A stretch of 64,000 nucleotides of DNA from Tenacibaculum dicentrarchi. GTDB taxonomy: Bacteria > Bacteroidota > Bacteroidia > Flavobacteriales > Flavobacteriaceae. The position numbers and the translations under genes are program-made. Positions 1-15,385 of this stretch are shown piece after piece (position 1 is the first letter of the stretch; the number at the start of each line of letters is the position of its first letter). The stretch is taken from NCBI RefSeq assembly GCF_964036635.1, contig NZ_OZ038524.1, positions 1,784,001 through 1,848,000 of the forward strand, given 5' to 3'. The notes beneath the pieces were generated by a model. That model was given only the letters and a program-made list of their open reading frames with translations. It was not told the origin of the DNA and did no database searches.

Positions 1-1
1 C

Positions 2-1972
2 GAAGGAGTCGAAGTTGTCCATTTTCACGGTAAAAATGATTATGAGGAAGGTTTATGGGTTGCAAATGAAATTAAGAAACTTGTAGCTAACGAAACGTGT
101 AAACATTCAGACTTTGCCATTTTATATAGAGCCAATCACATTTCACGCAGCATCGAACAATCTCTAATTAGAGAGAATATCCCTTATTCTGTTTTTGGTG
201 GCATTAGATTTTTTGAACGTAAAGAAATTAAAGATGTACTTGCTTATTTAAGATTGGTTGAACTTGGGGATGATTTTTCTTTTCTAAGAGTAGTTAATAC
301 TCCAAGCAGAGGTTTAGGTAAAAAGTTTATTGAAAATGTAGCCAAAATTGCCGAAAAGGAAAATATTTCTCTTTACTCAGCATTAAAAGAAAATATATCA
401 CAAAAGGATTTAAGTCGTAAAGGAGCCATAGAATTTATAGAATTAATCGAAAAGTTTAAAAAAACAAAAAATGATTTAATTATCTCAGATTTAACCAAAG
501 AAATAATGGACGAAAGTGGTCTTTCTGCGTATTATAGAACTGATGGAGACACAGATAGATTAGACAATGTAAAAGAACTTCAAAACTCTATTATTTTATT
601 AGAAACACAGGATGAAGAACAAATAAATCTTACTGAGTATTTGCAAGAAATAGCACTCTATACAAATATGGATATTGAAGACGATAAAAATGATAGAGTT
701 AAATTAATGACCATTCATACTTCTAAAGGTTTAGAATTTCCTTACGTTTTTCTTTGCGGTTTTACAGAAGGGGTTTTACCGAGTGCAATGTCAATTAAGG
801 AAAGAAGAGCAAAAGCCATTGAAGAAGAAAGACGTTTGACCTATGTTGCTATAACAAGAGCTGAAAAAGCATTTTATATGACCGAATCTGAAGGTTTCAA
901 TTTCAGTACAGGTCTAAATAAATACCCTTCACGCTTTCTCTTTGAAATAAGCGATAACTATTTTGTTCGTAAAGGTGAATTAAGTCAAGAAATTATAGAT
1001 GAAGCCAAAGAACAACTCAAATTAGATTCAACTCGCCAATCTATGCAAAAAAGATTTGAAGTTGGAGATATAGTAAATCATGCTATTTGGAAACAAGGAA
1101 AAATTATTGAAGTAAACGAAGACAAAGGTGAGTATCAAATTGAATTCTCTGAAACATTAAAGGTTAAACCAATAAATTTTGAATTTAGAGGGCTGTCAAT
1201 AATAGATGTGCCTGCCGAAAAAAATGATGAAACCAAAGAAGAAGCCGAACGAGTTGAAAGAGAAAAAGCTGAATTGAAATCCAAAGAAGAAGCCGAACGA
1301 GTTGAAAGAGAAAAGGCTGAATTGAAAGCCAAAGAAGAAGCTGAACGAGTTGAAAGAGAAAAGTCTGAATTGAAAGCCAAAGAAGAAGCCGAACGAATTG
1401 AAAGAGAAAAGGCTGAATTGAAAGCTAATGAAGAAGCTGAACGAGTTGAAAGAGAAAAGTCTGAATTGAAAGCCAAAGAAGAAGCCGAACGAATTGAAAG
1501 AGAAAAGGCTGAATTGAAAGCTAATGAAGAAGCTGAACGAGTTGAAAGAGAAAAGTCTGAATTGAAAGCCAAAGAAGAAGCCGAACGAATTGAAAGAGAA
1601 AAGGCTGAATTGAAAGCTAATGAAGAAGCTGAACGAGTTGAAAGAGAAAAGTCTGAATTGAAAGCCAAAGAAGAAGCCGAACGAGTTGAAAGAGAAAAAG
1701 CTGAATTGAAATCCAAAGAAGAAGCTGAACGAGTTGAAAGAGAAAAGTCTGAATTGAAAGCCAAAGAAGAAGCCGAACGAATTGAAAGAGAAAAGTCTGA
1801 ATTGAAAGCCAAAGAAGAAGCCGAACGAATTGAAAGAGAAAAAACTGAGTTGAAAGCTAATGAAGAAGTACTAAGCCCAACAAAGTATAAAAATAATGGC
1901 GGAGATCCAGAAAAACACGTAGATAGTACAAGTAATAATTTTTGGTCTAGATTTAAAAAGTTGTGGTCTTAA
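2..1972 (+). CDS. UvrD/PcrA-like superfamily 1 DNA helicase, C-terminal part, with a long charged repeat tail
   Basis: This is the 3' part of an SF1A helicase; the frame is open from position 2, so the N-terminal ATPase half lies upstream of the window. The 656 visible residues hold the helicase 2A region (ILYRANHISRSIEQSL near residue 45), motif V (TIHTSKGLEFPYVFLCG near 236) and motif VI (EEERRLTYVAITRAEK near 275). A PcrA-type Tudor-like module follows (FEVGDIVNHAIWKQGKI, about 352-400), which in PcrA/UvrD binds RNA polymerase. Residues 412-619 are 13 repeats of 16 residues rich in E, R and K, predicted to be a rigid single helix or coiled coil. The last 30 residues are encoded inside an attC-like hairpin (1879-2000), so the gene is probably itself carried by a cassette. 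The helicase class is certain; its biological role is not. A DNA-repair or a defence role is possible. Confidence 0.9.
   Translation, partial: EGVEVVHFHGKNDYEEGLWVANEIKKLVANETCKHSDFAILYRANHISRSIEQSLIRENIPYSVFGGIRFFERKEIKDVLAYLRLVELGDDFSFLRVVNTPSRGLGKKFIENVAKIAEKENISLYSALKENISQKDLSRKGAIEFIELIEKFKKTKNDLIISDLTKEIMDESGLSAYYRTDGDTDRLDNVKELQNSIILLETQDEEQINLTEYLQEIALYTNMDIEDDKNDRVKLMTIHTSKGLEFPYVFLCGFTEGVLPSAMSIKERRAKAIEEERRLTYVAITRAEKAFYMTESEGFNFSTGLNKYPSRFLFEISDNYFVRKGELSQEIIDEAKEQLKLDSTRQSMQKRFEVGDIVNHAIWKQGKIIEVNEDKGEYQIEFSETLKVKPINFEFRGLSIIDVPAEKNDETKEEAERVEREKAELKSKEEAERVEREKAELKAKEEAERVEREKSELKAKEEAERIEREKAELKANEEAERVEREKSELKAKEEAERIEREKAELKANEEAERVEREKSELKAKEEAERIEREKAELKANEEAERVEREKSELKAKEEAERVEREKAELKSKEEAERVEREKSELKAKEEAERIEREKSELKAKEEAERIEREKTELKANEEVLSPTKYKNNGGDPEKHVDSTSNNFWSRFKKLWS
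1235..1858 (+). repeat. 13 tandem 48-bp coding repeats (16-residue E/R/K units)
   Basis: Thirteen in-frame 48-bp units encode variants of K/N-EEAER-V/I-EREK-A/S/T-ELK-A/S. Units 4-9 alternate in a higher-order 96-bp pattern (K-start Ile unit followed by N-start Val unit, three times), which points to recent expansion by unequal exchange or slippage. The charge pattern (E paired with K or R at i+4) is that of ER/K single alpha helices; 208 residues would span roughly 30 nm if fully helical. The copy number probably varies between strains. Confidence 0.95.
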
Positions 1973-2000
1973 TCCCGCCACTATTCTTATACAGACCGTT
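1879..2000 (+). repeat. attC-like recombination site A (overlaps the helicase 3' end)
   Basis: The left arm is GCCCAAC, AAA, then GTATAAAAATAATGGCGG. The right arm is CCGCCACTATTCTTATAC, AGACC, then GTT. The arms are complementary except for two A·C oppositions, which become T·G wobbles on the bottom strand. GCCCAAC fits the integron 5' box RYYYAAC exactly, and GTTAACC nearly fits GTTRRRY. The left arm lies within the helicase reading frame and the stop codon (1970-1972) lies between the arms. It is followed directly by the first ORF-less cassette. Confidence 0.8.
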
Positions 2001-2447
2001 AACCTGCATTAAGCCAAATTACACGGAATATTAACGGAATTAAGCGTTTTCGAAAAGTAAAATCCTGACAAAGATTACGTGAATCTGTTTGTAATGAAAA
2101 CAGCGGACTTTCTAGCTCGTTTACGCAATAGAAACGGAATCGTAAAACAGCAGATTTTAAAAAATATTACGCAAGAATTTGTCTATAATTCCGAAATGAA
2201 AATGGCGGACTTTTTAGCTCGTTTACGCAATAGAAAATAAAAATGAAAAAATGTTCGGAATATTCCCGATGTTAGATTTTTTAGCGTAAGTTTATATGAA
2301 AATTTAGACAAGTTAAACACCGAATAAAAATGCTGAAAAATATGTGATTTTATAACGGTATTTTAATTAAAAAAGAAAAAACGCACGTTAACAAAGTGTA
2401 TGAGCGCATATTTTCCTGGCGGAAAAATACGCCACATACACATGGCG
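1999..2447 (+). repeat. ORF-less repeat cassette, copy 1 (own attC-like hairpin at 2390-2449)
   Basis: This 449-bp unit recurs at 3944, 5825, 6273 and (truncated) 9059. It starts at the TT of the upstream GTT and ends at the G of its own GTT, that is, exactly at integron-type cleavage points. Its last 60 bases form a compact attC-like hairpin (AAC, AAA, GTGTATG ... CATACAC, ATGGC, GTT). The body has an internal direct repeat (GCGGACTTTYTAGCTCGTTT, about 2102 and 2203). No protein frame is conserved among the copies. This fills the gap between the helicase and the first TIR gene; no other gene is seen there. Confidence 0.85.
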
Positions 2448-2538
2448 TTGGCAACAATTCTACTCATACCCCAGAAAAAAAGTTTGAATAAATACTAAAT
2501 AAAAGATTGACAATAACTATATTTTTTAAAAAAATACT

Positions 2539-3348
2539 ATGTATAGAGGATTTAATTTAAACTTTACCTTAAATGATAATGAATCTGAAGAATATGAAAA
2601 GCAGGGAAAAGAAATTTTTAATAATTTCAGGAAAGAAATCAAAAACAAAATAGATTCATATTCTCTTAATAATGGAAACCTTAGTGCCAACCTTATAATT
2701 AATGATTGGTTTCCAAACGTAAAAGCTGATATATTCTTATCTCATTCTCATAAAGACGAAAAAACTGCATTCATAATTGCTGGTTGGATTTATAAAAAAT
2801 TAGGTTTAACAACATTTATTGATTCAGCAGTTTGGGGTTATGCTGATAATTTAATTGATGCATTAAATTACGATTATTGTTATAATGAAGAGAAAAAAAC
2901 TTATGATTATAGAACATCTAACAATACTTGCTCTCATGTAAATTTAATGTTGCTTAATTCATTAAACAAAATGATAGATAATTGTGAATGTATCTTTTTC
3001 TTAAATACACCTAATTCAATTTCTTCTGAAAATTTCATTAAACAAAGTAGAACTTTTTCTCCTTGGATTTATTCGGAAATTTGTACAACTCAAATAATTA
3101 AAAAAAAGACACCAAAAAGACTTAAATCTGAATATAAAATGTTTTCGACAGAAGCTCAATTAAACGAAAGTAAACGTTCAGAACTTTTAATTGAATATGA
3201 TATTGATTTATCACATCTTATGGATATTGATTTTGAAAGCTTTAGAAGATGGATTCTAGGAAATAATATTTATTCTCTAAGTCCTTTAGATAGTTTGTAC
3301 AAAATGTTTCCCATTAAAAATAATCAAAAATATAAGCAACTTTATTAA
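2539..3348 (+). CDS. TIR-domain protein of a two-gene cassette
   Basis: This 269-residue protein has an N-terminal helical segment (1-60), then a TIR-type fold opening with DIFLSHSHKDE (64-74). A second core strand is CECIFFLNTP (149-158). The motif SPWIYSE (174-180) supplies a Glu at the place of the catalytic Glu of NAD-cleaving TIR domains. There is no signal peptide, so it is probably cytoplasmic. The stop codon touches the ATG of the next gene (3349) with no spacer, so the two are co-translated. The cassette runs from 2448 to 3943. By analogy with bacterial TIR immune proteins, I infer that it makes or cleaves an NAD-derived signal on phage infection; no sensor or Thoeris ThsA is present. 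Confidence 0.8.
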   Translation: MYRGFNLNFTLNDNESEEYEKQGKEIFNNFRKEIKNKIDSYSLNNGNLSANLIINDWFPNVKADIFLSHSHKDEKTAFIIAGWIYKKLGLTTFIDSAVWGYADNLIDALNYDYCYNEEKKTYDYRTSNNTCSHVNLMLLNSLNKMIDNCECIFFLNTPNSISSENFIKQSRTFSPWIYSEICTTQIIKKKTPKRLKSEYKMFSTEAQLNESKRSELLIEYDIDLSHLMDIDFESFRRWILGNNIYSLSPLDSLYKMFPIKNNQKYKQLY

Positions 3349-3744
3349 ATGGAAAATAAATTAAAACACCTAGAATTTATACAAAATACAATTACAAGAA
3401 TGAGTACCAATTCCTTTACTGTTAAAGGGTGGTCTGTAGCAATTATTACAGCCTTATTTGCTTTTTCTGCAAATGAATCAAACAAAAACTATGCTTATTT
3501 AGTATATTTTATAGCTCCTTTTTTTTGGTATTTAAATGCCTTTTTTTTAATGCAAGAGAGGAGATATAGAGAACTTTATAATGAAGTTAGGTTAAAAAAA
3601 AATAATGTAATAGATTTTTCTATGGATGCATCTAAATTCAATAAAGGGAAATGTGCTTTTTGGAGAAGTTGTTTTGGTGAAACTATTTTTCCATTATATT
3701 TAATATTACTTCTTATTGGAACATATATAATTTTAAAAATGTAA
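3349..3744 (+). CDS. Small membrane protein partnered with the TIR protein (HLEFIQ...NSF..KGW family)
   Basis: This 131-residue protein has three predicted membrane segments (about 27-40, 47-68 and 113-130). The N-terminal motif is HLEFIQ, x3, I, x, R, x3, NSF, x2, KGW (7-28). The same motif and membrane layout occur in the protein at 4421-5077, whose partner is also a TIR protein. It starts directly after the TIR stop codon. I recognise the family only as a recurrent small membrane protein and cannot give it a tested function. The pairing suggests a membrane effector (pore or channel) triggered by the TIR product, like SLATT-type or other membrane effectors of nucleotide-signalling immunity. 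That role is inference. Confidence 0.7.
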   Translation: MENKLKHLEFIQNTITRMSTNSFTVKGWSVAIITALFAFSANESNKNYAYLVYFIAPFFWYLNAFFLMQERRYRELYNEVRLKKNNVIDFSMDASKFNKGKCAFWRSCFGETIFPLYLILLLIGTYIILKM

Positions 3745-3756
3745 AAAACTGTTGCC

Positions 3757-3945
3757 AACAATGTGTATAGTTAATGCGGGTTAAGTGCTTAACCAAAAGT
3801 TTTGTGTATATTTACTAAGTCCGTCAAATCATTTTGATTTGACTTTAGTACAGAAAAAAATAAAGGCAAACAAAATGCTTTGCCTCGTGCTAAATTGAAA
3901 GTCCTCTGACTTTCTATTCCCGCACTAAACCATACACGAAACGTT
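3757..3945 (+). repeat. attC-like recombination site B (end of TIR cassette 1)
   Basis: The left arm is GTTGCCAAC, AAT, GTGTATAGTTAATGCGGG; the right arm is CCCGCACTAAACCATACAC, GAAAC, GTT. Pairing of the arms leaves two A·C oppositions and one bulged base. The ten bases ending at AAC are the reverse complement of the first ten bases of the cassette (GTTGGCAACA, 2447-2456), as expected of a cassette's two ends. At 189 bp it is the longest site in the array, and its centre holds smaller hairpins such as GTCAAATCA...TGATTTGAC. Confidence 0.85.
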
Positions 3946-4392
3946 AACCTGCATTAAGCCAAATTACACGGAATATTAACGTAATTAAGCGTTTTCGAAA
4001 AGTAAAATCCTGACAAAGATTACGTGAATCTGTTTCTAATGAAAACAGCGGACTTTCTAGCTCGTTTACGCAATAGAAACGGAATCGTAAAACAGCAGAT
4101 TTTAAAAAATATTACGCAAGAATTTGTCTATAATTCCGAAATGAAAATGGCGGACTTTTTAGCTCGTTTACGCAATAGAAAATAAAAATGAAAAAATGTT
4201 CGGAATATTCCCGATGTTAGATTTTTTAGCGTAAGTTTATATGAAAATTTAGACAAGTTAAACACCGAATAAAAATGCTGAAAAATATGTGATTTTATAA
4301 CGGTATTTTAATTAAAAAAGAAAAAACGCACGTTAACAAAGTGTATGAGCGCATATTTTCCTGGCGGAAAAATACGCCACATACACATGGCG
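3944..4392 (+). repeat. ORF-less repeat cassette, copy 2 (own attC-like hairpin at 4335-4394)
   Basis: This copy is 449 bp and almost identical to copy 1 (for example, GTTTCTAATG here against GTTTGTAATG). It sits precisely between TIR cassettes 1 and 2. The near-identity to copy 1 across a gene cassette implies recent duplication by insertion rather than ancient divergence. No gene is seen in it. Confidence 0.85.
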
Positions 4393-4420
4393 TTGTGCGT
4401 CATATAACCAAACCAACAAA

Positions 4421-5077
4421 ATGAGTGCTATAAACGAAAAACATTTAGAATTTATTCAAGGAGTTATAAATAGACATAATTCGAATTCTTTTAAAATTAA
4501 GGGTTGGGCAATTACAATTACTTCTGCAATATTTGCTCTTACAGGAACAATTAAAGAACCTTATTTATGTTTCATAGCAATTGGGCCTATAATAATGTTT
4601 TGGATTTTAGATTCAATGTTTCTTGCAAATGAAAGGTGTTTTGTATCATTATACTCTTGTGTAGCAAAAGGAAATAAAATAAAAATACCTAAAGAGCAAC
4701 TGAAAAAGAAAATAAGGAAAGTTTTAGATAATGACCCAACAATAACCGCTAAAGAATATTCAGTCACAGATTATTCAATGAATTTTGTTCAATTTAAAGA
4801 ACTGAAAAGGAATAATTGGATTTCAGTTATTGGTTCTTATACAATTAGATGGTTTTATTTAGTTTTAATTCTATTAACTCTTATAACTTTTTACGGTCTA
4901 AAAACTTTAAATAAAACTGAAGAAGCAAAACCTTTGAATATAAATGCAACAATAACTAATTCAAAAAATTTCAATATAAATCCAATTGATGTTAATGCAA
5001 CAATAATTTCTTCTGACACTTTAAAAATTAAAGAAATATCAAAACCAATTAAAATTAATAAACTCAAAAAAAAATAA
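4421..5077 (+). CDS. Small membrane protein partnered with a TIR protein, longer paralogue
   Basis: This 218-residue paralogue of the protein at 3349-3744 has HLEFIQ (8-13), NSF (22-24), KGW (27-29), membrane segments at about 27-42 and 48-67, and a third near 130-157. It adds a soluble linker between segments 2 and 3 and an Asn/Ile/Lys-rich C-terminal tail (160-218). Here the membrane gene precedes its TIR partner by four bases, the reverse of the order in cassette 1. The same family paired with two different TIR types argues for a functional partnership. Effector activity at the inner membrane is inferred. Confidence 0.7.
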   Translation: MSAINEKHLEFIQGVINRHNSNSFKIKGWAITITSAIFALTGTIKEPYLCFIAIGPIIMFWILDSMFLANERCFVSLYSCVAKGNKIKIPKEQLKKKIRKVLDNDPTITAKEYSVTDYSMNFVQFKELKRNNWISVIGSYTIRWFYLVLILLTLITFYGLKTLNKTEEAKPLNINATITNSKNFNINPIDVNATIISSDTLKIKEISKPIKINKLKKK

Positions 5078-5081
5078 ATCT

Positions 5082-5690
5082 ATGGCAAGAAAAACATTCA
5101 TCTCATATAAATATAGTGAGGCTCAAAATTTAAGAGACGAAATTCTTGAAAGCCTTGGAGAAGATGCTACTTATTACCAAGGAGAAACTTCCGAATCTGC
5201 GGATTTAACTGACACTTCTACCGAAAATATTAAAAAGGATTTAAAAGATAAAATGTACAATACTTCTGTTACTATAGTCATAATATCGCCAAACATTAAG
5301 AAAAGTAAGTGGATTGATTGGGAAATTGAATATTGTTTAAAAAACATTACTCGAAAAGGAAGAACTTCACAAACAAACGGAATTGTTGCTGTCATACAAA
5401 AAGTTAATGGCAGGTATGATTGGTTTAAGACAATTAGCCAACAAAATGACGGCTGTCGTTCATCTTCTTATTCAACAGCATTAGTATATGACATTATAAA
5501 TAAAAATAGATTTAACCAAGAACCGAAAGTTTACTCTTGTGAAACGTGTAAAATAGTTACTGAATCAACTGCTTCTTACATATCATACATTGACGAAGAG
5601 TCTTTTCTTATTGACCCAAATACATATATTGAAAACGCATTTGGAAAAAGTGAAAATTCAGAAGATTACGACTTAACAAAGGAAAAATAA
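5082..5690 (+). CDS. TIR-like protein of the DUF1863/ThsB type
   Basis: This 202-residue protein opens with KTFISYKYSEA (4-14). It continues with TSVTIVIISPN (61-71) and SKWIDWEIEYCL (75-86), in which W77 and E81 match the conserved Trp and the Glu of ThsB-like TIR domains (DUF1863). These proteins sense phage and make cyclic ADP-ribose-type signals in Thoeris. The canonical Thoeris effector ThsA is absent; the only partner is the membrane protein just upstream (4-base gap), so this may be a Thoeris-like system with a membrane effector. The C-terminal part (170-202) is acidic and unassigned. Confidence 0.8.
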   Translation: MARKTFISYKYSEAQNLRDEILESLGEDATYYQGETSESADLTDTSTENIKKDLKDKMYNTSVTIVIISPNIKKSKWIDWEIEYCLKNITRKGRTSQTNGIVAVIQKVNGRYDWFKTISQQNDGCRSSSYSTALVYDIINKNRFNQEPKVYSCETCKIVTESTASYISYIDEESFLIDPNTYIENAFGKSENSEDYDLTKEK

Positions 5691-5702
5691 ATACGAACGC
5701 AC

Positions 5703-5826
5703 AACACCGTATAAAATTAATTGCTGGTTTTAGCCAATTTACGTAAGTCCTCGCGGAATTTAAATTTGTGTTTTATTTGCTAACTTTGGTACTTAAAACA
5801 CGCAACTAATCTTATACAACAACGTT
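5703..5826 (+). repeat. attC-like recombination site C (end of TIR cassette 2)
   Basis: The left arm is ACGCACAAC, ACC, GTATAAAATTAATTGC; the right arm is GCAACTAATCTTATAC, AACAAC, GTT. There are two A·C oppositions on this strand, which are G·T wobbles on the other. The nine bases ending at AAC are the exact reverse complement of the cassette start GTTGTGCGT (4392-4400). The site is the same length as, and very similar throughout to, site E at 14567, although the genes they follow are unrelated. Confidence 0.85.
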
Positions 5827-6272
5827 AACCTGCATTAAGCCAAATTACACGGAATATTAACGTAATTAAGCGTTTTCGAAAAGTAAAATCCTGACAAAGA
5901 TTACGTGAATCTGTTTGTAATGAAAATAGCGGACTTTCTAGCTCGTTTACGCAATAGAAACGGAATCGTAAAACAGCAGATTTTGAAAAATATTACGTAA
6001 GATTTTGCTTATAATTCCGAAATAAAACCGTAGACTTTTTAGCTCGTTTACGCAATCGAAAATAAAAATGAAAAAATGTTCGGAATATTCCCGATTTTAG
6101 ATTTTTTCACGTAAGTTTATATCAAAATTTAGACAAGTTAAACGCCGAATAAAAACGCTGAAAAATATGTGATTTTATAACGGTATTTTAATTAAAACAG
6201 AAAAAACGCACGTTAACAAAGTGTATGAGCGCATATTTTCCTGGCGGAAAAATACGCCACATACACATGGCG
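5825..6272 (+). repeat. ORF-less repeat cassette, copy 3 (own attC-like hairpin at 6215-6274)
   Basis: This copy is 448 bp and more diverged from copies 1 and 2, with scattered substitutions and an altered segment near 6021-6035. It is followed without any spacer by copy 4, and the joint reads GGCG|TTAACC, a perfect head-to-tail junction at the integron cleavage point. Confidence 0.85.
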
Positions 6273-6722
6273 TTAACCTGCATTAAGCCAAATTACACGG
6301 AATATTAACGTAATTAAGCGTTTCCTAAAAGTAAAATTCTGACAAAGATTACGTGAATCTGTTTGTAATGAGAATAGCGGACTTTCTAGCTCCTTTGCGC
6401 AATAGAAACGGAATCGTAAAACAGCAGATTTTGAAAAATATTACGTAAGATTTTACTTATAATTCCGAAATGAAAATGGCGGACTTTTTAGCTCGTTTAC
6501 GCAATCGAAAATAAAAATGAAAAAATGTTCGGAATATTTCCGATGTTAAATTTTTTAGCGTAAGTTTATATGAAAATTTAGACAAGTTAAATGCCGAATA
6601 AAAACGCTGAAAAATATGTGATTTTATAACGGTATTTTAATTAAAAAAGAAAAAAACGCACGTTAACAAAGTGTATGAGCGCATATTTTCCTGGCGGAAA
6701 AATACGCCACATACACTAGGCG
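6273..6722 (+). repeat. ORF-less repeat cassette, copy 4, tandem to copy 3 (own attC-like hairpin at 6665-6724)
   Basis: This copy is 450 bp and begins at the cleavage point of copy 3. Copies 3 and 4 share features against copies 1 and 2 (ATAGCGGAC for ACAGCGGAC, and ATTACGTAAGATTTT). They also differ from each other at several sites, so the tandem pair is not a fresh duplication of one copy. The next bases, GTTGGCAAAA, open the following gene cassette. Confidence 0.85.
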
Positions 6723-6739
6723 TTGGCAAAAATTAGAGA

Positions 6740-7492
6740 ATGAAAGAATTAATTAAAGAGTTAGCAGAATATTTGAACAATAATCAATGGTTAAATTTGG
6801 TGTTTTTACTACTCGCTATTTCAAGTATTGTTGTTTCATATTTATTGTATTTAAAGTCCAAAAAATCAAAAAAGCCAACTTATATAATTAAGAGCTTTAA
6901 TCTTGTAAAGGAAAAGGTTTCAAAAATTGAGCAAGTCAAAATTTTATATGACGAAAAAGTTATTAACAACTTAACTGTAAGTAAACTATCTCTTTGGAAC
7001 AAAGGGAAAGAGACAATAGATAGTTCAGACATTGCACCAAAAGATAAAATTAGAATTGATATTGCTAAAAATCATAAAATTCTAAATGCAAATATCATTT
7101 ATCAAAAGAAGATTGCTAACAACTTCAGTCTTAACCTTAATAAATCTCAAAGTTCTTTAAAGATAGATTTTGACTATTTTCATTTTAATGAAGGTGTCGT
7201 TATCGAATTATATCACACAGGAACTTCAAGTAGTGAATTAGAATTAAACGGAACAATAAAAGGGGTTAAAGAAATACAGAAAGGAGAAATTAAAAAGGAT
7301 TATTTGATTGATTTAGTCTATGGTAAAACTTTAGGGCGACTAGGAGATAAATTAAAAGGTTTTTGGTGGAAAGTTTATTTTTTCATTACACTTCCACTAT
7401 TTATACCTATAATTATAATAACAATGCCAATATCTAGAGTTTATGAAATGACAAGATTAGTTCCGAAAGAATTCGAACTGAATGATGAATAA
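6740..7492 (+). CDS. Membrane-anchored protein of unknown function, cassette-borne
   Basis: I do not recognise this 250-residue protein. Residues 19-37 form a membrane segment (LVFLLLAISSIVVSYLLYL) followed by a Lys/Ser-rich stop-transfer stretch. A soluble, probably beta-rich domain covers roughly 45-190, and a second membrane segment lies at about 207-228 (VYFFITLPLFIPIIIITMP). It is the only gene in its cassette (6723-7624) and starts 16 bases after the upstream attC-like GTT, in the same orientation as the TIR cassettes. A role in defence is possible from its company only. Confidence 0.7.
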   Translation: MKELIKELAEYLNNNQWLNLVFLLLAISSIVVSYLLYLKSKKSKKPTYIIKSFNLVKEKVSKIEQVKILYDEKVINNLTVSKLSLWNKGKETIDSSDIAPKDKIRIDIAKNHKILNANIIYQKKIANNFSLNLNKSQSSLKIDFDYFHFNEGVVIELYHTGTSSSELELNGTIKGVKEIQKGEIKKDYLIDLVYGKTLGRLGDKLKGFWWKVYFFITLPLFIPIIIITMPISRVYEMTRLVPKEFELNDE

Positions 7493-7500
7493 CTTTTGCC

Positions 7501-7626
7501 AACACCGTATATAATTTATTGCTGGCTTCTCTCCTACTTACGAAAGTCCTCTCGGACTTTCTTGGTCGGTAATTATTTATTAAATTAGTTACTTGAAACA
7601 CGCAACAAACCATATACAATCACGTT
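7501..7626 (+). repeat. attC-like recombination site D (end of cassette 3)
   Basis: The left arm is TTTTGCCAAC, ACC, GTATATAATTTATTGC; the right arm is GCAACAAACCATATAC, AATCAC, GTT. Three A·C oppositions are G·T wobbles on the bottom strand. The ten bases ending at AAC are the reverse complement of the cassette start GTTGGCAAAA (6722-6731). The loop carries a smaller hairpin, GAAAGTCC...GGACTTTC. Confidence 0.85.
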
Positions 7627-7697
7627 ATGTTTAACGGCGGAATTGAACTTTACTGAAATAGGTTGACTAAAAATTCATCAATTACTGATAGTCACTT

Positions 7698-8156: not shown

Positions 8157-8176
8157 ATGATAAGAAACTAATTAAA

Positions 8177-8950
8177 ATGGTGCAACAATATCGTAAAACT
8201 GTAGGTTCTAAAACTGGAGGAATTAAACTCTATACGGAATTAAAAAACGACATGGTTAATCAGAATATTAACATCGGTAGAGATAAGTTTTATCGATTTT
8301 TAAGGCTTCATAACTTACTTATTCCTAAAAGAAAAAACTATGTAACAACAACAAATTCTAAACATCTTTTTAGAAAATATAAAAACATTGTAAAACACCA
8401 CGTTCCTACTCGACCAGAGCAACTTTGGGTAGCTGATATTACATACATCAAAACTGAAAATGGACACAACTACTTAGCAATCGTTACGGATGCCTATTCC
8501 AAGAAAATTATGGGGTATAAACTCGACAATCACATGAAGACATCACTTTGTACAGATGCGCTCGCTATGGCTATTAAAAATAGAGAATATCCTCATGAAA
8601 AACTTATACATCATTCTGACAGAGGATTCCAATATTGTAATCCTAAATACACTGAGTTTGCTGAAAGTAATGGAATTATCATGAGTATGACCGAAAAATA
8701 TGATCCCTACAAAAATGCTATTGCTGAAAGAATAAACAGAACTTTAAAGTACGAATATGCTTTAAAAGAAACAATCAAAAATACAGCTATAGCTCAAGAA
8801 ATCACAAAACAAGCCGTAGATATATACAATAATTTAAGAACACATTTTAGCCTAAATTTAAGAAAACCCGCAGAAGTACATTTAAATCCGAATATAAAAT
8901 ATAAATCATATCGAAAAAATAATGTAAATTTACCCGAACTAACTATTTAA
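8177..8950 (+). CDS. IS3-family transposase OrfB (DDE integrase)
   Basis: From its ATG it encodes 257 residues, but the frame is open upstream to about 8060 and reads an OrfB-type helix-turn-helix there (FGISKQAFYKRIKKQ), so the working product is probably an OrfAB fusion. The rve/DDE core is complete: WVADITYIKT (first Asp), HHSDRGFQYC (second Asp) and YDPYKNAIAERINRTLKYEY (Glu). It catalyses copy-out transposition through a circular intermediate. It appears intact and may be active. Confidence 0.9.
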   Translation: MVQQYRKTVGSKTGGIKLYTELKNDMVNQNINIGRDKFYRFLRLHNLLIPKRKNYVTTTNSKHLFRKYKNIVKHHVPTRPEQLWVADITYIKTENGHNYLAIVTDAYSKKIMGYKLDNHMKTSLCTDALAMAIKNREYPHEKLIHHSDRGFQYCNPKYTEFAESNGIIMSMTEKYDPYKNAIAERINRTLKYEYALKETIKNTAIAQEITKQAVDIYNNLRTHFSLNLRKPAEVHLNPNIKYKSYRKNNVNLPELTI

Positions 8951-9058
8951 AAACAAAGCTAGTTCAAATTATTTTTTGCATTATAAACGGCTAAAAAAAA
9001 ATAGTTTGAACGATATAAATTAACCTAAAAAAGGTCAACCTATATCAGTATAATACAA

Positions 9059-9490
9059 AAATTACACGGAATATTAACGGAATTAAGCGTTTTCGAAAAG
9101 TAAAATCCTGACAAAGATTGCGTGAATCTGTTTGTAATGAAAATAGCCGACTTTCTAGCTCGTTTACGCAATAGAAACGGAATCGTAAAACAGTAGATTT
9201 TGACAAATATCACGTAAGATTTTGCTTATAATTCCGAAATGAAAATGGCGGACTTTTTAGCTCGTTTACGCAATCGAAAATAAAAATGAAAAAATGTTCG
9301 GAATATTCCCGATGTTAGATTTTTTAGCGTAAGTTTATATGAAAATTTAGACAAGTTAAACGCCGAATAAAAACGCTGAAAAATGTGTGATTTTATAACG
9401 GTATTTTAATTAAAAAAGAAAAAACGCACGTTAACAAAGTGTATGAGCGCATATTTTCCTGGCGGAAAAATACGCCACATACACATGGCG
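9059..9490 (+). repeat. ORF-less repeat cassette, copy 5, 5'-truncated (own attC-like hairpin at 9433-9492)
   Basis: About 432 bp match the other copies, starting at AAATTACACGG; the first 17 bases are missing beside the IS3 right end. The 3' hairpin is intact and is followed by GTTAGGTGCAAGC, the head of another cassette that is then cut by the IS30 element. Together with the IS3 right end this accounts for the gap between 8951 and 9564. Confidence 0.85.
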
Positions 9491-9519
9491 TTAGGTGCAA
9501 GCTAAAAAAAAACCGCTCC

Positions 9520-10614
9520 ATTCAATAACTTAACGCAACAAATCTAAAATTATAGATTTGTAAAATGGAAATAAAAAAGCATAGACGTTTAACTCTAAAA
9601 GAAAGAGTTATTATTCAGACTCTTTTAAATGAAAAAAAGTCTAAATCTTATATCGCTAAAACATTAAAAAGAGCACGTTCAACAATCTTTAGAGAAGTCT
9701 CTAAATGGGTACAAAATAAAGAAGATAAATATGATGCTGAATTAGCACATTGGAACGCTAAAGATGATTATGCGAACAAAAGAAACCTTGATAAAATAAG
9801 CACCTATTCCCTACTCAAATTTTTTGTTTATAAAGGACTTTTATCTAACTGGACTCCTGAACAAATTTCAGGAAGACTCAAAGAGTTATATCCAAAAAAC
9901 CCAATAATGTCTATTTCACATGAAGCTATCTATAGACACATTTACACCAGACCACAAGCTAGTTTAAATAAAAAATTAATAAAACTTCTAGTTCGTAAAA
10001 AAACAAGGCGGAGACCTCATAAAAAAAAACGTGGTGGTGGCTCTAAAATAATCAATCAAGTTAGTATTGACAACAGACCTAAGCATATTGAACTTAGAGA
10101 TGAAGTTGGACATTGGGAAGGGGACTTAATCATTGGAAAAGACCATAAAAGTGCTATCGGAACAATTGTTGAACGCAAAACAAGGTTCACTTTAATCATC
10201 AAACTAAAATCGAAAAAAGCGATGGAAGTTGCCAATCAGTTTAGTAAAATATTGAATAAATTAAATCCTATTTATAAAAAATCAATGACATATGACAACG
10301 GAATTGAAATGGCAAGGCATCAAAAAATAACGCAAAAAACAGGTATGAAAATTTACTTTGCACATCCATATTCTTCATGGGAAAGAGGCACCAATGAAAA
10401 CACAAATGGACTCATTAGACGATATCTGCCTAAGGGTACTAATTTTAATGAAATTAGCGAAAATCAACTACAAATTATTCAACAAAAATTAAACAATAGA
10501 CCTCGGAAAATTATAGCGTACAAAACTCCTAAAGAAATGATGGATATTGAAATAAAAAACATAGCTTAGTACCATCAAAAATTAACAACGCTTTGTTGCG
10601 TTAGAACATTGAAT
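9520..10614 (+). mobile_element. IS30-family insertion sequence
   Basis: Imperfect terminal inverted repeats are ATTCAAT, five bases, AACGCAACAAA on the left and TTTGTTGCGTT, five bases, ATTGAAT on the right. They enclose one transposase gene. The dinucleotide CC flanks both ends and could be a 2-bp target duplication, the size IS30 elements make. It sits 27 bases after the GTT that closes ORF-less copy 5, in a cassette whose matching end is missing. Confidence 0.85.
9565..10569 (+). CDS. IS30-family transposase
   Basis: This 334-residue protein has an N-terminal helix-turn-helix typical of IS30 (LTLKERVIIQTLLNEKKS, then ARSTIFREV). The DDE core includes HWEGDLIIG (first Asp), MTYDNGIEMA (second Asp) and ERGTNENTNGLIRRYLPKG (Glu). 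Length and motifs are those of an intact family member. It starts 45 bases inside the left inverted repeat. No frameshift or stop is seen, so the element may be functional. Confidence 0.93.
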   Translation: MEIKKHRRLTLKERVIIQTLLNEKKSKSYIAKTLKRARSTIFREVSKWVQNKEDKYDAELAHWNAKDDYANKRNLDKISTYSLLKFFVYKGLLSNWTPEQISGRLKELYPKNPIMSISHEAIYRHIYTRPQASLNKKLIKLLVRKKTRRRPHKKKRGGGSKIINQVSIDNRPKHIELRDEVGHWEGDLIIGKDHKSAIGTIVERKTRFTLIIKLKSKKAMEVANQFSKILNKLNPIYKKSMTYDNGIEMARHQKITQKTGMKIYFAHPYSSWERGTNENTNGLIRRYLPKGTNFNEISENQLQIIQQKLNNRPRKIIAYKTPKEMMDIEIKNIA

Positions 10615-10803
10615 CCAAGATTGCGTTAAAATTAAATGTTTATAAAAAGGAAAGGTTGTAAATTGAGGAAATAAAAGTCACTCGCTTAAAGAGATTTGAA
10701 CATTGAAAGTAAACAAAATAGTAGAATTGAATGAATACCAAAAACGGGAATATTTCCCAAACCAACTTTTTTAAGTTGGAAAATTTCATAAAAAAGAAAA
10801 ATT

Positions 10804-11016
10804 ATGAAAAGTTTATTTTTAGGATTAACATTTTTATTAGCATCATTTAGTGGAACTACAGATGTTAAAGAAAGTGCAACTACAGAGGAATTTGTTTGTG
10901 GTAATTGGGTAGAAGTGAATGTTGAATGCGACAATAACTTTTCCTTATGCACAGATGATCAAACGTTTAAACAAGTATTAGAAGATGCTTGGTATTTCTC
11001 AAATGGAAGATGTTAA
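10804..11016 (+). CDS. Small secreted cysteine-containing protein, unknown function
   Basis: This 70-residue protein has a signal peptide (about 1-17, LFLGLTFLLASFSG) and a short mature part with four cysteines in V-C-GNW, E-C-D, L-C-TD and the last residue. An extracytoplasmic, possibly disulfide-bonded peptide is likely. It lies upstream of a GLPGLI and outer-membrane-barrel pair, and a similar order (small secreted protein then GLPGLI) is found at 29411-28323. No family is recognised. The hairpin at 11026-11050 separates it from the GLPGLI gene. Confidence 0.65.
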   Translation: MKSLFLGLTFLLASFSGTTDVKESATTEEFVCGNWVEVNVECDNNFSLCTDDQTFKQVLEDAWYFSNGRC

Positions 11017-11025
11017 TTATTTTTT

Positions 11026-11050
11026 TGTGCGCAAATTAATTTTGCGCACA
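11026..11050 (+). terminator. Hairpin TGTGCGCAAA / TTTGCGCACA
   Basis: A perfect 10-bp stem with a 5-base loop, preceded by a T-run and followed by TTTAATC, lies between the small secreted protein and the GLPGLI gene. It may be a weak terminator or an mRNA processing hairpin that sets their ratio. Confidence 0.55.
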
Positions 11051-11074
11051 TTTAATCAAATACAATTATTAAAT

Positions 11075-11911
11075 ATGAAACAAATTTTAAAAGTATTATT
11101 TTTCTGTTTATTTACGAGCAACGTTATTGGACAAATTCAAATTAAGGGTAATATGAGTTTTCCTCCTATCGAATATAATGCAGAAAAATTAGAACAAACA
11201 AAACAAAACATTTATTATAATTATACATATATTTCAAACCCTAAAAAAACAGAAAAAACAAAGTCTTCTTTAACTTTACTCCAAATTGGTCAAAATTGGT
11301 CAAAATTTGTAGATTTTAATACTTTAAAAAAAGATTCTATAGAAGAAAAATTTAGCTATTATAAAAACTTAGGCGCAGTTGAATTAAATAAGTTACTCGC
11401 TATAAGGGCGAAAATAGGGTTTAAAAAAAATATTTTTAAAGATTTAAAAAATAACTCCTTAACAATTCAAAGTAAAATTTACAAAAAAAATTATGAGTAT
11501 AAAGAGAAAAAAAATAGTTTAAATTGGCAGCTTGTAAAAGGAAATAAAACAATTTTAAATTATAAAGTAAAAAAAGCAATTATAAATTATGGAGGTAGAA
11601 AATGGATAGCTTGGTATACAGAAGAAGTACCAATTAATTTAGGTCCTTATGTTTTTGGTAATTTACCTGGTTTAATTTTAGAGTTGTATGATGATAAAAA
11701 AAACTTCCATTTTATAGCTATTGGTGTGGATAATAAACAAAAAGAAATTTATAAGTCAATTAAAAAAAATACAATAGAAACATCAAAAGAAAACTTTTTT
11801 AAAGCTGAAAGAAATTTTTATGAAAAGCCTGAAAATTTTATTACAGGAACTATTAGAGGAAGTGCAAATTTCAAAAAAATACCATATAACCCTATAGAAA
11901 TTATTGATTAA
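11075..11911 (+). CDS. GLPGLI family secreted protein
   Basis: The ATG at 11075 gives a clean signal peptide (MKQILKVLFFCLFTSNVIG) and 278 residues; a start further upstream at 10985 would overlap the preceding gene and the hairpin. The family signature appears as FGNLPGLILELYD in the C-terminal half, after WIAWYTEEVPINLGPY, which is also typical. GLPGLI proteins are Bacteroidetes periplasmic or surface proteins of unproven function, usually encoded next to a barrel protein. Here the stop codon overlaps the ATG of the barrel gene by one base, so the two are translationally coupled. Confidence 0.88.
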   Translation: MKQILKVLFFCLFTSNVIGQIQIKGNMSFPPIEYNAEKLEQTKQNIYYNYTYISNPKKTEKTKSSLTLLQIGQNWSKFVDFNTLKKDSIEEKFSYYKNLGAVELNKLLAIRAKIGFKKNIFKDLKNNSLTIQSKIYKKNYEYKEKKNSLNWQLVKGNKTILNYKVKKAIINYGGRKWIAWYTEEVPINLGPYVFGNLPGLILELYDDKKNFHFIAIGVDNKQKEIYKSIKKNTIETSKENFFKAERNFYEKPENFITGTIRGSANFKKIPYNPIEIID

Positions 11912-14538
11912 TGAAGTTATTTATAAGTTTTGGTATATTTTTTCTTTTTTCAATTTTTAGTTTTTCTCAAAGCACAATTAATGGTAATTTAAAAACTATA
12001 GAAGGTGTACCAGTTTCTGGTGTTAGTGTAACAATTAGGCTATTAAATACTATTTTAAACTATGGTATTTCTAATAATAAAGGAGAATTTTCAATTAGAA
12101 TAAATTCTAAAACAGAAAAAATTCAACTTAAAATTAGGTCAATGGGTTTTAAAAATGTTTCCAAAATTATTGAAAATAAAACTCAAACTTTAAATTTTGT
12201 TTTAGAAGAAGAAATAACCGAATTAAAAGAAGTTATTGTAAAATCTTTACCTATTACTCGTAAAGGCGATACTATAAATTATTCTGTAAGTGCATTTTCT
12301 AAACAAGAGGATAGAACTATTGCAGATGTTTTAAAAAATATGCCTGGTATTCAAGTTTTAGATAATGGAAAAATTTTGTATCAGGGTAAACCTATTAATA
12401 AATATTATATTGAAGGGTTGGATTTATTAGAAGGTAAGTATAATTTAGCAAATAAAAACTTACCTTATAAAGAAGTTACTAAAGTTCAAGTTTTAGAAAA
12501 TCATCAACCAATAAAGATGTTGGATACTTTAGTTTTTTCTGACCAATCAGCTATAAATATTAAACTTAAAAATAGTTACACTTTTACGGGGCAAGCAGAA
12601 ATTGGTAATGGATTATCGCCTTTACTTTGGGATGTGAATGTAACGCCTATATTATTTTCAAAGAAAAAACAAATGTTAAGTTCTTATCAATCTAATAATA
12701 CTGGAAACGATGTGGCTTCGCAATTAAAAACTTTAACAATTGAAGATTTATTAGAACAATTTGAAAGTAATAATGAAAAACAAGATTGGTTATCTATTCA
12801 AAAACTTCAAACACCCAATTTTTCAGAAAAACGTTGGTTAGATAACAACATTCATTTAATCACAAATAATTATTTACAAAAATTAAAAAACGATTATAAA
12901 TTGCGGTTAAATGTTTCTTATATTAATGATTATCAGCAACAAAACGGAATTACAAATACTCAATTTTTCACTTCAAATGACACTATTAATTTATTTGAGC
13001 AGAAATATAACCAACTTTATATAAATACTTTAGAAACAAATCTAACACTTCAAAAGAATACTAATAAAAACTTTTTAAAAAACAGTTTACAATTTCAAGG
13101 ATTTTGGGATAATCAACAAGGCAATATTCAACTCAATAATAGTAATATTGGTCAAAGTTTAAGTAATAGATATTTTAAACTATCAAATAAATTTAAAACT
13201 CTATTCTCAATTGGTAAACAGATTGCTTCATTAAATTCTTATATAGGATTTAATAAAACACCACAATCATTAATTATTCACCCAGGTCAGTTTAACGACT
13301 TATTAAATAATGGTAATGCTTATGAAAAAGTTATTCAAAACGTTGAACTTAATACGTTTTACACTAATAAGTCTTTAGGTTTCACAAAAGGTTGGAAACA
13401 ATTCAGTTTTAGCCCTAAAGTTGGTTTTCAGTTTGAAAAGCAAGATTTAAAAAGTAAAATTTTAACATCAAACACAAATCAAATCTCAAATTTTGAAAAC
13501 AATTTAGATTGGAGACGTGCCAAATTGTATTTTAATTTAAAAACACAATATAAAAAAGATGAATGGAGAATGGAATTGACAACGCCAGTTAATTTTCATA
13601 ATTACCAATTAGAAGACAAACCTTTATTGCGAAATCAAAACCTCAATCGATTAACTTTTGAACCACGCTTCTCTTTAAATTATGATATCACTAATTTTTG
13701 GAGTATTGTTTCATCAGCCAGTTTTAGCAATCAATTTGGGGCTATAAATCAAGTATATTATAATTACATCTTGCTAAATTATAGAAACATACAACGTATA
13801 GATGCACCTTTACCTGAAAAACAAACTATTAATTATTCTGCATTTATAGGTTATAGAAACCCTATTAATGCTTTATTTTTAAACTTAACTTATTCAAATA
13901 CGACAACAAATAATAACTTACTTTACAATACACAAGTTTTAAATAATGGTGCAATTGAGTTTCAAGCTATTGAACAAGACAATAAAAGACAATCTCATAA
14001 TTTTTCTACGAAATTGAGCAAATATATTAGTTCAATAAACACAAATATAACGATGAGTGTCAATTATAGTCTACAATATTTTCAGCAAATTTTGAATTCT
14101 AATATAACAGATATCTCTAATCAAAATTGGGGTTTTAATGGAAAGGTAGATATCGATATTACTGATTCGTTAAATACAGAATTAACATCTACTTTTCAAT
14201 TTTCAAACAATCAAATCCAAGAACAGAAAAATCAAACAATAACTCAACAATTTCATAAATTCAATATTAACATTTACCCAAAAGAAAATCAATACTTAAG
14301 TTTAAAAACTGAACTTATCAAGAATAATTTATTCTCTGAAAATACTAAAAATTTATTTGCAGATTTAGTTTATCGCTATACTTGGAAAAAGAAAAACATT
14401 GATTTTGAGATTCAATGGAATAATATTTTTAACACAGAAAATTACAGAACTGTAAATATTAATAATTTTAGTTATTTGGAATCTAATTTTATTTTAAGAC
14501 CTACACAAGTATTGTTTAAAGTCAAGTTTTCATTATAA
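11911..14538 (+). CDS. Outer-membrane beta-barrel protein with carboxypeptidase-regulatory-like N-terminus (TonB-receptor-like)
   Basis: This 875-residue protein has a signal peptide (1-20, ending FSFSQS), a carboxypeptidase-regulatory-like beta-sandwich (about 22-105, starting INGNLKTIEGVPVSGVSV) and a plug-like region (about 118-205, with IADVLKNMPGIQVL and YYIEGLDLLEGKY). A long barrel ends in the aromatic strand VLFKVKFSL. It belongs to the TonB-dependent-receptor-like proteins that pair with GLPGLI proteins; its substrate is unknown. It is followed by attC-like site E, so the pair probably travelled as one large cassette of about 4-5 kb, though the head of that cassette is not identifiable. 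Confidence 0.85.
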   Translation: MKLFISFGIFFLFSIFSFSQSTINGNLKTIEGVPVSGVSVTIRLLNTILNYGISNNKGEFSIRINSKTEKIQLKIRSMGFKNVSKIIENKTQTLNFVLEEEITELKEVIVKSLPITRKGDTINYSVSAFSKQEDRTIADVLKNMPGIQVLDNGKILYQGKPINKYYIEGLDLLEGKYNLANKNLPYKEVTKVQVLENHQPIKMLDTLVFSDQSAINIKLKNSYTFTGQAEIGNGLSPLLWDVNVTPILFSKKKQMLSSYQSNNTGNDVASQLKTLTIEDLLEQFESNNEKQDWLSIQKLQTPNFSEKRWLDNNIHLITNNYLQKLKNDYKLRLNVSYINDYQQQNGITNTQFFTSNDTINLFEQKYNQLYINTLETNLTLQKNTNKNFLKNSLQFQGFWDNQQGNIQLNNSNIGQSLSNRYFKLSNKFKTLFSIGKQIASLNSYIGFNKTPQSLIIHPGQFNDLLNNGNAYEKVIQNVELNTFYTNKSLGFTKGWKQFSFSPKVGFQFEKQDLKSKILTSNTNQISNFENNLDWRRAKLYFNLKTQYKKDEWRMELTTPVNFHNYQLEDKPLLRNQNLNRLTFEPRFSLNYDITNFWSIVSSASFSNQFGAINQVYYNYILLNYRNIQRIDAPLPEKQTINYSAFIGYRNPINALFLNLTYSNTTTNNNLLYNTQVLNNGAIEFQAIEQDNKRQSHNFSTKLSKYISSINTNITMSVNYSLQYFQQILNSNITDISNQNWGFNGKVDIDITDSLNTELTSTFQFSNNQIQEQKNQTITQQFHKFNINIYPKENQYLSLKTELIKNNLFSENTKNLFADLVYRYTWKKKNIDFEIQWNNIFNTENYRTVNINNFSYLESNFILRPTQVLFKVKFSL

Positions 14539-14566
14539 CAATTTCGGAATAAAAAAAACGGCTACC

Positions 14567-14690
14567 AACACCGTATAAAATTAATTGCTGGTTTTAGCTT
14601 ATTTAGAAAAGTTCTCGCAGACTTTAAATCTGTGTTTTATTTACTAACTTTAGTGCTTGAAACACGCAACTAATCTTATACAACAACGTT
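14567..14690 (+). repeat. attC-like recombination site E
   Basis: The left arm is CTACCAAC, ACC, GTATAAAATTAATTGC; the right arm is GCAACTAATCTTATAC, AACAAC, GTT. It is the same length as site C and mostly identical to it. The bases before AAC predict a cassette head GTTGGTAGCC, which is not found upstream, so the head of this cassette was lost, probably in the IS30 region. Confidence 0.82.
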
Positions 14691-14761
14691 GTAATTAATG
14701 GAATAGAAGAATTTTACTGAAATAGCTTGACTAAAAATTCATCAATTATTGATAGTCACTT

Positions 14762-15220
14762 ATGAAATTACAAAAACAACCCTGGCGAAAAAAAACGTAC
14801 GAAAAAGTAACATTAGAACTCAAATTATTCATCGTTGACCAAATTCAAAATGGTCAAATCTCTACAAACTTTGCCTCCAAAAAATATGATGTTCCTAGAA
14901 CTACTATTTCATATTGGATTAGAAAATATAGTATCTTAGCTCAACAAAATAATGGTATGAGTAAATTAGATGAAATTAAAAAACTAAAGGAACGAATTGA
15001 AGAACTAGAGTTTGTAAAAGACTTTCAGCAAGATGTTATTGCCGATATGGAAATCATTACTGGAGTTGATATGTCAAAAAAGTCGTTGCCCGAAACATTA
15101 GCAAAAGAGATAGAAATAAAGAAGAAAAACATTTTAAAAGAAAATGGTTCTATCAGTGTTTTGGGATTAGTAAACAAGCCTTCTACAAAAGAATTAAAAA
15201 ACAAGAAAACAAACAGTTAA
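14762..15220 (+). CDS. IS3-family transposase OrfA (truncated element)
   Basis: The 152-residue product is identical in sequence to the OrfA at 7698-8156. Its own orfB is cut, so it can no longer make a full OrfAB transposase. It could still bind the terminal repeats or be mobilised by the intact copy only if the missing right end were supplied. Confidence 0.88.
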   Translation: MKLQKQPWRKKTYEKVTLELKLFIVDQIQNGQISTNFASKKYDVPRTTISYWIRKYSILAQQNNGMSKLDEIKKLKERIEELEFVKDFQQDVIADMEIITGVDMSKKSLPETLAKEIEIKKKNILKENGSISVLGLVNKPSTKELKNKKTNS

Positions 15221-15240
15221 ATGATAAGAAACTAATTAAA

Positions 15241-15382
15241 ATGGTGCAACAATATCGTAAAACTGTAGGTTCTAAAACTGGAGGAATTAAACTCTATACG
15301 GAATTAAAAAACGACATGGTTAATCAGAATATTAACATCGGTAGAGATCAGTTTTATCGATTTTTAAGGCTTCATAACTTAC
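15241..15382 (+). pseudogene. Fragment of IS3-family OrfB
   Basis: The first 47 codons from the OrfB ATG are retained with a few changes (for example, GATCAG for GATAAG). The frame then breaks at the array/chromosome junction and the DDE core is absent. Confidence 0.88.
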
Positions 15383-15385
15383 AAT

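Follow-up and report, generated by a model that had tools for sequence, protein, structure and literature searches.

The stretch of DNA considered here (the window; 64,000 nucleotides (nt), C1:1784001-1848000) belongs to the chromosome, contig C1, of Tenacibaculum dicentrarchi, a fish-associated marine Tenacibaculum whose genome (G000) forms a single contig of 2,808,268 bp. At its start lies the tail, the distal 14.7 kb, of a long array of gene cassettes separated by hairpins that resemble the attC recombination sites of integrons: an outer left box with AAC, a short spacer, a stem with its returning arm, a second spacer and GTT. On the chromosome as a whole, 200 such sites were found in one orientation only, extending over 181,102 bp (6.4% of the chromosome) and delimiting 199 cassettes with a median length of 576 bp; the array begins 166 kb upstream of the window. 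A previous sequence-only reading of the window had noticed ten of these hairpins, and all ten are present, five long sites (named A to E) and five of 60 nt. The features of the window, in window coordinates, are the following, where IS denotes an insertion sequence and ORF an open reading frame.

1..1998, plus strand: cassette beginning 971 bp upstream of the window, with the C-terminal part of a UvrD/GajB-like helicase and a 48-bp coiled-coil repeat
1879..2000, plus strand: attC-like site A, 122 nt
1999..2447, plus strand: ORF-less cassette, a 449-bp repeat unit
2390..2449, plus strand: 60-nt attC-like site
2448..3943, plus strand: cassette with a ThsB/TIR-like protein (2539-3348) and a PDC-M50A-type protein (3349-3744); its start, GTTGGCAACAA, matches its own left box
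3757..3945, plus strand: attC-like site B, 189 nt
3944..4392, plus strand: ORF-less cassette
4335..4394, plus strand: 60-nt attC-like site
4393..5824, plus strand: cassette with a PDC-M50A-type protein (4421-5077) and a ThsB TIR protein (5082-5690)
5703..5826, plus strand: attC-like site C, 124 nt
5825..6272, plus strand: ORF-less cassette
6215..6274, plus strand: 60-nt attC-like site
6273..6722, plus strand: ORF-less cassette
6665..6724, plus strand: 60-nt attC-like site
6723..7624, plus strand: cassette with a protein (6740-7492) lacking a family match
7501..7626, plus strand: attC-like site D, 126 nt
7625..9490, plus strand: ORF-less cassette split by an IS3-type element (ORFs 7698-8156 and 8177-8950); start and left box match at 2 of 5 positions
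9433..9492, plus strand: 60-nt attC-like site
9491..14688, plus strand: apparently composite segment with an IS30-type transposase (9565-10569) and further genes (10985-11911, 11911-14538)
14567..14690, plus strand: attC-like site E, 124 nt, the last site and end of the array

About 13 copies of the 48-bp repeat, at 1230-1880, code for the charged tail of the UvrD/GajB-like protein, and the stop codon of this protein (1970-1972) falls within site A. The IS3-type element spans 7651-9050, with inverted repeats recognized by eye near 7651 and 9050. The segment at 9491..14688 is probably rearranged, because its start matches the left box at only 2 of 5 positions. The end of the array had earlier been placed at 15382; the last site already stops at 14690, and the stretch 14694-15382 resembles an incomplete copy of the IS3-type element (repeat family D6; ends placed by eye).

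The sites were collected with a covariance model built from 42 of them. Applied to the whole genome, the model returned 134 sites (150 candidates scored), 133 of which lay on one strand at 1618014-1798690; a lone long-type site was matched far outside the array, at C1:2514731-2514854. Applied to the array region alone it returned 140 sites, which together with 60 of the 60-nt type gave the total of 200. The shared plan itself (AAC-N3-stem...stem-N4-6-GTT) had 139 plus-strand and 18 minus-strand matches in 239 kb around the window against 10-24 in five first-order shuffles, and the common architecture seen in the ten hairpins of the window is thus far more frequent than in shuffled sequence. 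Pattern searches that demanded strict stems lost approximately 40% of the sites (122 kept versus 200 in the final set), and a hit obtained only by them, at 1778680, was discarded as not belonging to the site family. At C1:1659595-1662302, three 186-nt sites with identical boxes follow one another at a spacing of 1261 bp, as if one cassette had been tripled in tandem.

An integron cassette opens with bases complementary to the left box of its own terminal site, and the resulting R pairing measures 7 bp in class 1 integrons. With the present array, at least 4 of the 5 positions behind GTT matched the cassette's own left box in 188 of the 199 cassettes (2000 shuffles: mean 29.5, maximum 45), and, when long-site cassettes were counted as distinct pairs, 51 of 60 were complementary (shuffles: mean 5.0, maximum 14). 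A low value obtained at first (33 of 65 perfect, non-60-nt cassettes) was largely due to sites having been missed. Uninterrupted pairing extended over 9-10 bp in 124 of the 139 long-site cassettes; of the 11 cassettes with fewer than 4 matches behind GTT, two lie within the window, where IS elements have inserted. A crossover at G|TT, to which the strain comparison below also points, and pairing of the boxes within a cassette were both found, the exact base within GTT not being fixed by the sequence. The classical integron boxes that the sequence-only reading had invoked are not kept, RYYYAAC fitting only 6 of 200 left boxes and GTTRRRY only 5 of 199 starts.

That the cassette genes point one way holds for the full array: the longest ORF of at least 100 amino acids lies on the array strand in 93 of 96 cassettes and on the opposite strand in 3. 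An ORF-less unit of approximately 450 bp with a 60-nt site (for example, window 1999-2447) makes up 56 of the 200 cassettes, and a further 45 are without an ORF of 60 amino acids; gene-less cassettes with promoter activity are reported for Vibrionaceae (PMC11014356). The cargo scan covered 82 of 84 cassette proteins. Among the 25 of 57 Pfam families listed, AbiTii, PemK, GmrSD, Schlafen-type helicase and protein kinase had single members while Gp49, TIR_2 and HTH_3 had two each, and the 25 of 118 PADLOC models listed included Thoeris ThsB, PD-Lambda, PD-T4-6, TmtA, spbK and mads. Two cassettes of the window combine a ThsB-like with a PDC-M50A protein, the gene order being reversed between them. 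Judged by such matches, some of the cassette genes are candidate defence genes, a match to a defence model being no proof of defence.

The arms of the hairpins covary. Of 16 stem pairs in the 42 aligned sites, 13 were changed on both sides, with 113 such cells, a count reached by 0 of 500 shuffles and clearly weaker once the arms are slid. Two stem positions are unpaired, the first in 38 and the second in all 42 sites, the latter with A against C throughout. The same two positions were A.C in 137 and 144 of 145 distinct sites taken from the best 150 of 371 matches in 54 recombinase loci (see below), these sites being model-fitted and a few of them having served to build the model. The remaining unpaired cells of the 145 sites, mostly at one pair, comprised 71 A.C, 5 C.A, 4 G.T or T.G and 13 others, and an extra base stood beside the second mismatch in 6 sites. 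Extrahelical bases of the kind that mark attC sites are thus replaced by fixed A.C mismatches, which read G.T on the bottom strand; since G.T can pair, the bottom strand can form a near-continuous stem and the top strand cannot. Folding with DNA parameters accordingly favoured the bottom strand, by its lower energy, in 124 of 125 distinct long sites and in all 12 distinct sites of 60 nt, compared with 112 of 300 control segments. The left spacer, of 3 nt, is shorter than the right one, of 5-6 nt.

The genome has six genes matching the phage-integrase family, and one of these (C1:1616366-1617538; 391 amino acids) stands directly before the first cassette on the same strand as the array. The protein scores above the cut-off of NF040815 (site-specific tyrosine recombinase/integron integrase, recomb_XerA_Arch) and, at 195.9 bits, under the cut-off of 265 for TIGR02249 (integrase_gron), with a gap in the alignment over the insert; nowhere in the whole genome was TIGR02249 matched above cut-off. 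In place of the insert characteristic of IntI (the I2 helix), 24 residues are found where the IntI structure 2a3v has 71. The corresponding distance between catalytic motifs is 91-92 in at least 55 of 61 relatives and 133 in 11 of 15 IntI proteins (the rest unparsed or misparsed), and a predicted model (mean predicted local distance difference test, pLDDT, 82; predicted template modelling score, pTM, 0.52) has no helix between 286-299 and 316-330, the place of I2. The closest structures by sequence are 4a8e and 5hxy. An additional N-terminal domain of approximately 120 amino acids is present; residues 1-130 matched no Pfam family at E≤1, PF22823 appears in the precomputed domains of relatives and is absent from our own Pfam scans, and the fold search gave the domain no name, the best 50 fold matches listed all being tyrosine recombinases. 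Phylogenetically, IntI (15 rows, 100/100) is split from the insertless recombinases, a label that includes rows without a seen array; the tree has long outgroup branches and does not separate loss of I2 from never having had it. Public annotation tags some relatives as 'site-specific tyrosine recombinase/integron integrase', which is the label of the XerA-type model.

The sequence-only reading had reported no integrase in the window and had pointed to clusters of attC sites lacking an integrase (CALIN). The former is correct, and the window alone does look like a CALIN; the array is not one, because a recombinase, with an attI candidate, is present 166 kb upstream. Of what the upstream search had been suggested to reveal, the tyrosine recombinase and attI candidate were found and the IntI-type insert was absent.

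The attI candidate emerged from comparison of G000 with the near-identical strain T. dicentrarchi TDCHD05 and two genomes of a sister species, T. finnmarkense. Behind the stop codon of the recombinase gene the four genomes share approximately 45-50 bp and then break at a GTT, beyond which they carry four different cassette starts; in three of them the start matches the left box of the first site, and the pairwise similarity with TDCHD05 stops one base before that GTT point. A start matching the left box of the first detected site was located behind the recombinase in 42 of 42 loci (8 nt in 41 and 6 nt in one; without a shuffle control), at 260 bp or less from the gene in 31 of them, and in several of the other 11 the base context shows that an earlier site had been missed. 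The shared GTT break and the start-matched positions together place an attI candidate beside the recombinase. In nine of the 31 candidates, all beside recombinases closely related to that of the present array, a palindrome (arms of 8-13 bp) is located 4-6 bp from GTT, and many others have, on a loose reading, a TATATAAC-like motif at that place.

Turnover of cassettes was followed between G000 and TDCHD05, whose recombinases are 99.7-100% identical and whose 8.3-kb flank is 99.0% identical. Seventeen TDCHD05 loci were compared (L025 and 16 of 17 array contigs; L130 duplicates the contig of L025 and was omitted). Similarity broke off internally at 134 points, of which 66 lay no more than 15 bp from a predicted crossover, compared with 4.5 for random placement (maximum of 13 in 1000 trials), and many of the remaining ends coincide with the left border of a site body common to both. 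Individual cassettes, including that at C1:1732783-1735092, are 100% identical between the strains amid different neighbours. Differences between strains thus begin at GTT, as the sequence-only reading had anticipated for a cassette array.

With good confidence, we read the window as the distal part of a complete sedentary chromosomal integron-like platform that would be run by an I2-less Xer-type recombinase on folded bottom strands. This reading draws on the array and its boundaries, the complementarity of the boxes, the common insertion point, the turnover, the linkage across species described below, the missing insert and the predicted folding bias, all taken from sequence. The recombinase, which we infer to be the actor, is proposed to bind the folded bottom strand of a cassette site, presumably as a single strand, and the duplex attI just behind its own gene. 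One strand would be exchanged between G and TT, and the junction left by this half-reaction would be resolved by replication. The choice of strand would most likely be set by the two fixed G.T/A.C positions together with the unequal spacers. New cassettes would enter at G|TT beside the recombinase while older ones make up a 181-kb reservoir, with its matches to defence and toxin-antitoxin families and its many gene-less cassettes.

The alternative that fares best is a duplex system of the Xer/dif or invertase kind, in which the hairpin would be merely an inverted repeat of two half-sites. Xer proteins act on the dif site, and the recombinase is indeed most like XerA, both by the NF040815 profile and by its closest structures, and the palindromes close to GTT in nine attI candidates also speak for it. 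The arms of the cassette sites, however, covary across approximately 80 nt, the fixed mismatches are such as can pair on the bottom strand, and the left box pairs with the start of its own cassette; a duplex substrate gives no reason for either the A.C mismatches or this pairing and is considered unlikely. Nor does resolution of chromosome dimers, with one dif per chromosome and no cassette array, agree with a chromosome bearing 200 sites.

Sites and recombinase extend well beyond this strain, and a covariance search, as suggested by the sequence-only reading, recovered sites in both the genus and the phylum. Of the 57 other genus genomes, 56 have sites (70 of 97 in the whole search, which included our own), and 43 encode the recombinase at E≤1e-40 (51 of 97 overall). 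Fifty-four recombinase loci were assembled, 14 from one search and 40 chosen from the genus search, several being from one genome. In the 669 kb covered downstream of these genes, 302 sites lay on the strand of the recombinase and 1 on the other; in the 230 kb covered upstream, the numbers were 1 and 3. A downstream site was present in 38 of the 54 loci, many of which had been chosen after sites were seen on the same contig, and in 32 of the 41 loci with at least 5 kb behind the gene. Outside the genus, a co-directional recombinase precedes arrays in four loci from three genomes of the same family (L187, L188, L196 and L197), and in five loci (L165, L179, L182, L183 and L190) recombinase and array are head-to-head; L169 was left unclassified. 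In a sample of the phylum, 124 of 395 genomes had sites.

Several points weigh against this reading. No excision, integration or circular cassette has been observed, and the folding calculations apply to naked DNA, with control segments that were no hairpins. Fourteen of the 57 genus genomes gave no recombinase match at E≤1e-40 and all 14 had site matches, so that recombinase-less states or missed genes exist. Sixteen of the 54 recombinase loci had no downstream site, 9 of these with at least 5 kb of sequence, and owing to the way in which loci were chosen the 38 positive ones give no unbiased rate. Among 36 stretches taken from other genera and families, 10 encoded a tyrosine recombinase of this type. 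Of the 124 site-positive phylum genomes, 32 also hold a true IntI, where approximately 34 would be expected by independence, and weak single matches among these 32 may be ordinary attC sites. Finally, one of 20 true-IntI loci (L215) has four sites of the model type approximately 4-6 kb away, on the upstream side.

The last two points bear on a second alternative, in which the array would be a canonical integron or CALIN, built and served by a conventional IntI that has been lost or acts from elsewhere, the Xer-like neighbour being incidental. The cassette anatomy and the GTT crossover are features of integrons, and true IntI genes (above the TIGR02249 cut-off) occur in 105 of the 395 phylum genomes. 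Of 108 genomes with IntI at E≤1e-50, however, only one belongs to the class of the window genome and none to its family, and the window genome itself has no TIGR02249 match above cut-off. It is the insertless recombinase that precedes the arrays on the expected side, in the 38 loci and also in other genera and families. Around IntI, no model-type site was detected at E≤0.01 in 19 of 20 loci (stretches of 12-20 kb), nor, for 15 IntI genes, at E≤1 up to 1.5 kb away; a canonical-attC pattern had only 2 matches near the 20 genes, being too strict to be informative. This alternative is accordingly regarded as very improbable. A third, in which the hairpins would be RNA elements (terminators or attenuators) or ends of hairpin transposons and the turnover otherwise caused, has in its favour the position of stem-forming hairpins between genes and is most improbable: no Rfam family reached threshold in window 1-20000, the broken pairs are on the plus strand, where the genes lie, strain differences start at GTT, and the sites accompany one recombinase family.

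The recombinase family is wider than the arrays, with 218 plasmid records at E≤1e-40, many of them proteobacterial. A 5.1-kb Acinetobacter plasmid (L222; NZ_CP104735.1, 130-2151, minus strand) encodes a C-terminal fragment, 221 amino acids long, of a related recombinase (query residues 158-391, 54% identity), co-directional with and just before a gene annotated tet(X3). The two are separated by a palindrome, 7 nt and GTT, an arrangement also seen in the attI candidates, and beyond the gene lies a left half-site of the AAC type; start and half-site match only in part, and the best hit of the site model has an E of 0.3. Judged from this arrangement, tet(X3) may once have been the first cassette of such a platform. 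Further Acinetobacter plasmids carry similar recombinase pieces. On plasmids with full-length relatives, the site model at E≤0.001 gave two sites in Persicobacter (L218), one in Rufibacter (L219) and none behind the recombinase relative of a Pontibacter plasmid (L220); pattern matches of 60 nt in L219 and 46 nt in L220 were also noted, with small genes in one direction following in L219 and partly in L220. Plasmid-borne versions of the system thus probably exist.

The system works like an integron, and its recombinase falls outside IntI. With the sedentary chromosomal integrons, of which the Vibrio superintegron is an example, it shares a large one-direction array of mostly single-gene cassettes with a hairpin behind each gene, a GTT crossover, an integrase and attI at one end, a cargo of defence and toxin-antitoxin genes, and gene-less cassettes. 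It differs from them in a recombinase that lacks I2 and has an extra N-terminal domain, in its box sequences, in spacers of 3 and 5-6 nt, in A.C mismatches in place of bulged bases, in the longer R pairing of 9-10 bp, and, in this genome, in a recombinase gene that runs in the same direction as the array. Of these differences, the lack of I2 and of bulged bases concerns defining features of IntI integrons. With the XerA/XerC-type recombinases (NF040815, 4a8e, 5hxy) the enzyme has in common the core-binding and catalytic domains and the lack of an I2 helix; unlike them, it is linked to cassette arrays and carries the N-terminal domain. Integration of CTXphi by XerCD, as portrayed in passages of PMC4792948 and PMC7790495, likewise joins an I2-less Xer-type enzyme to a folded single strand without bulged bases; there, in contrast, a phage borrows the enzyme of its host, with neither cassettes nor an array. 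The sequence-only reading had left the choice between an integron array and a parallel system using the same chemistry; the proposal is supported, and its second half fits better because the recombinase has no IntI-type insert.

Strand choice at attC sites is attributed mainly to bulged bases contacted by IntI (in the relevant passages of PMC2727003 and PMC3053210), and the I2 helix is described in PMC4792948 and PMC7790495 as necessary for cassette capture. According to the latter, I2 is not known from any other protein and its deletion abolishes IntI1, and the same two papers treat the origin of I2 and of the bulged attC bases as a chicken-and-egg problem. The account of an integron-like subgroup in PMC8138268 holds the insert to be essential for integron function, yet not fully conserved in that subgroup; insertless recombinases may therefore have been seen before, and arrays for them are not described in that account. 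As set out in PMC9668308, IntegronFinder calls IntI where PF00589 and a profile specific to IntI overlap, and IntegronFinder 2.0 reported no integrons in Tenacibaculum larymnensis, by the genome description in PMC10013915 (a genome that may or may not be among those searched here). Both statements fit the suggestion of the sequence-only reading that arrays in this phylum may be missed by existing models. One complete integron was named by IntegronFinder 2.0 in Bacteroidetes apart from Chlorobi and Ignavibacteriae, according to the survey results in PMC9024848. Our literature search, which covered open-licence PMC papers, found no description of arrays such as these.

Tentatively, and with slightly more doubt than belief, we propose that the system represents a second solution to cassette capture, in a lineage that never had I2 and in which strand choice would rest on fixed G.T wobbles. 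Such a system could have been invented independently or could represent an I2-less stage from before IntI. Among Flavobacteriaceae and certain other Bacteroidota it might be the prevalent form of integron, one that has escaped notice because detection tools look for IntI. A widespread cassette system without I2 and bulged bases would make the chicken-and-egg question testable. The arrays come from a group in which few were known, sites being present in 56 of the 57 other genomes sampled from the genus and in 124 of 395 from the Bacteroidota, and the system accounts for gene turnover, candidate defence genes included, between near-identical fish-associated strains.

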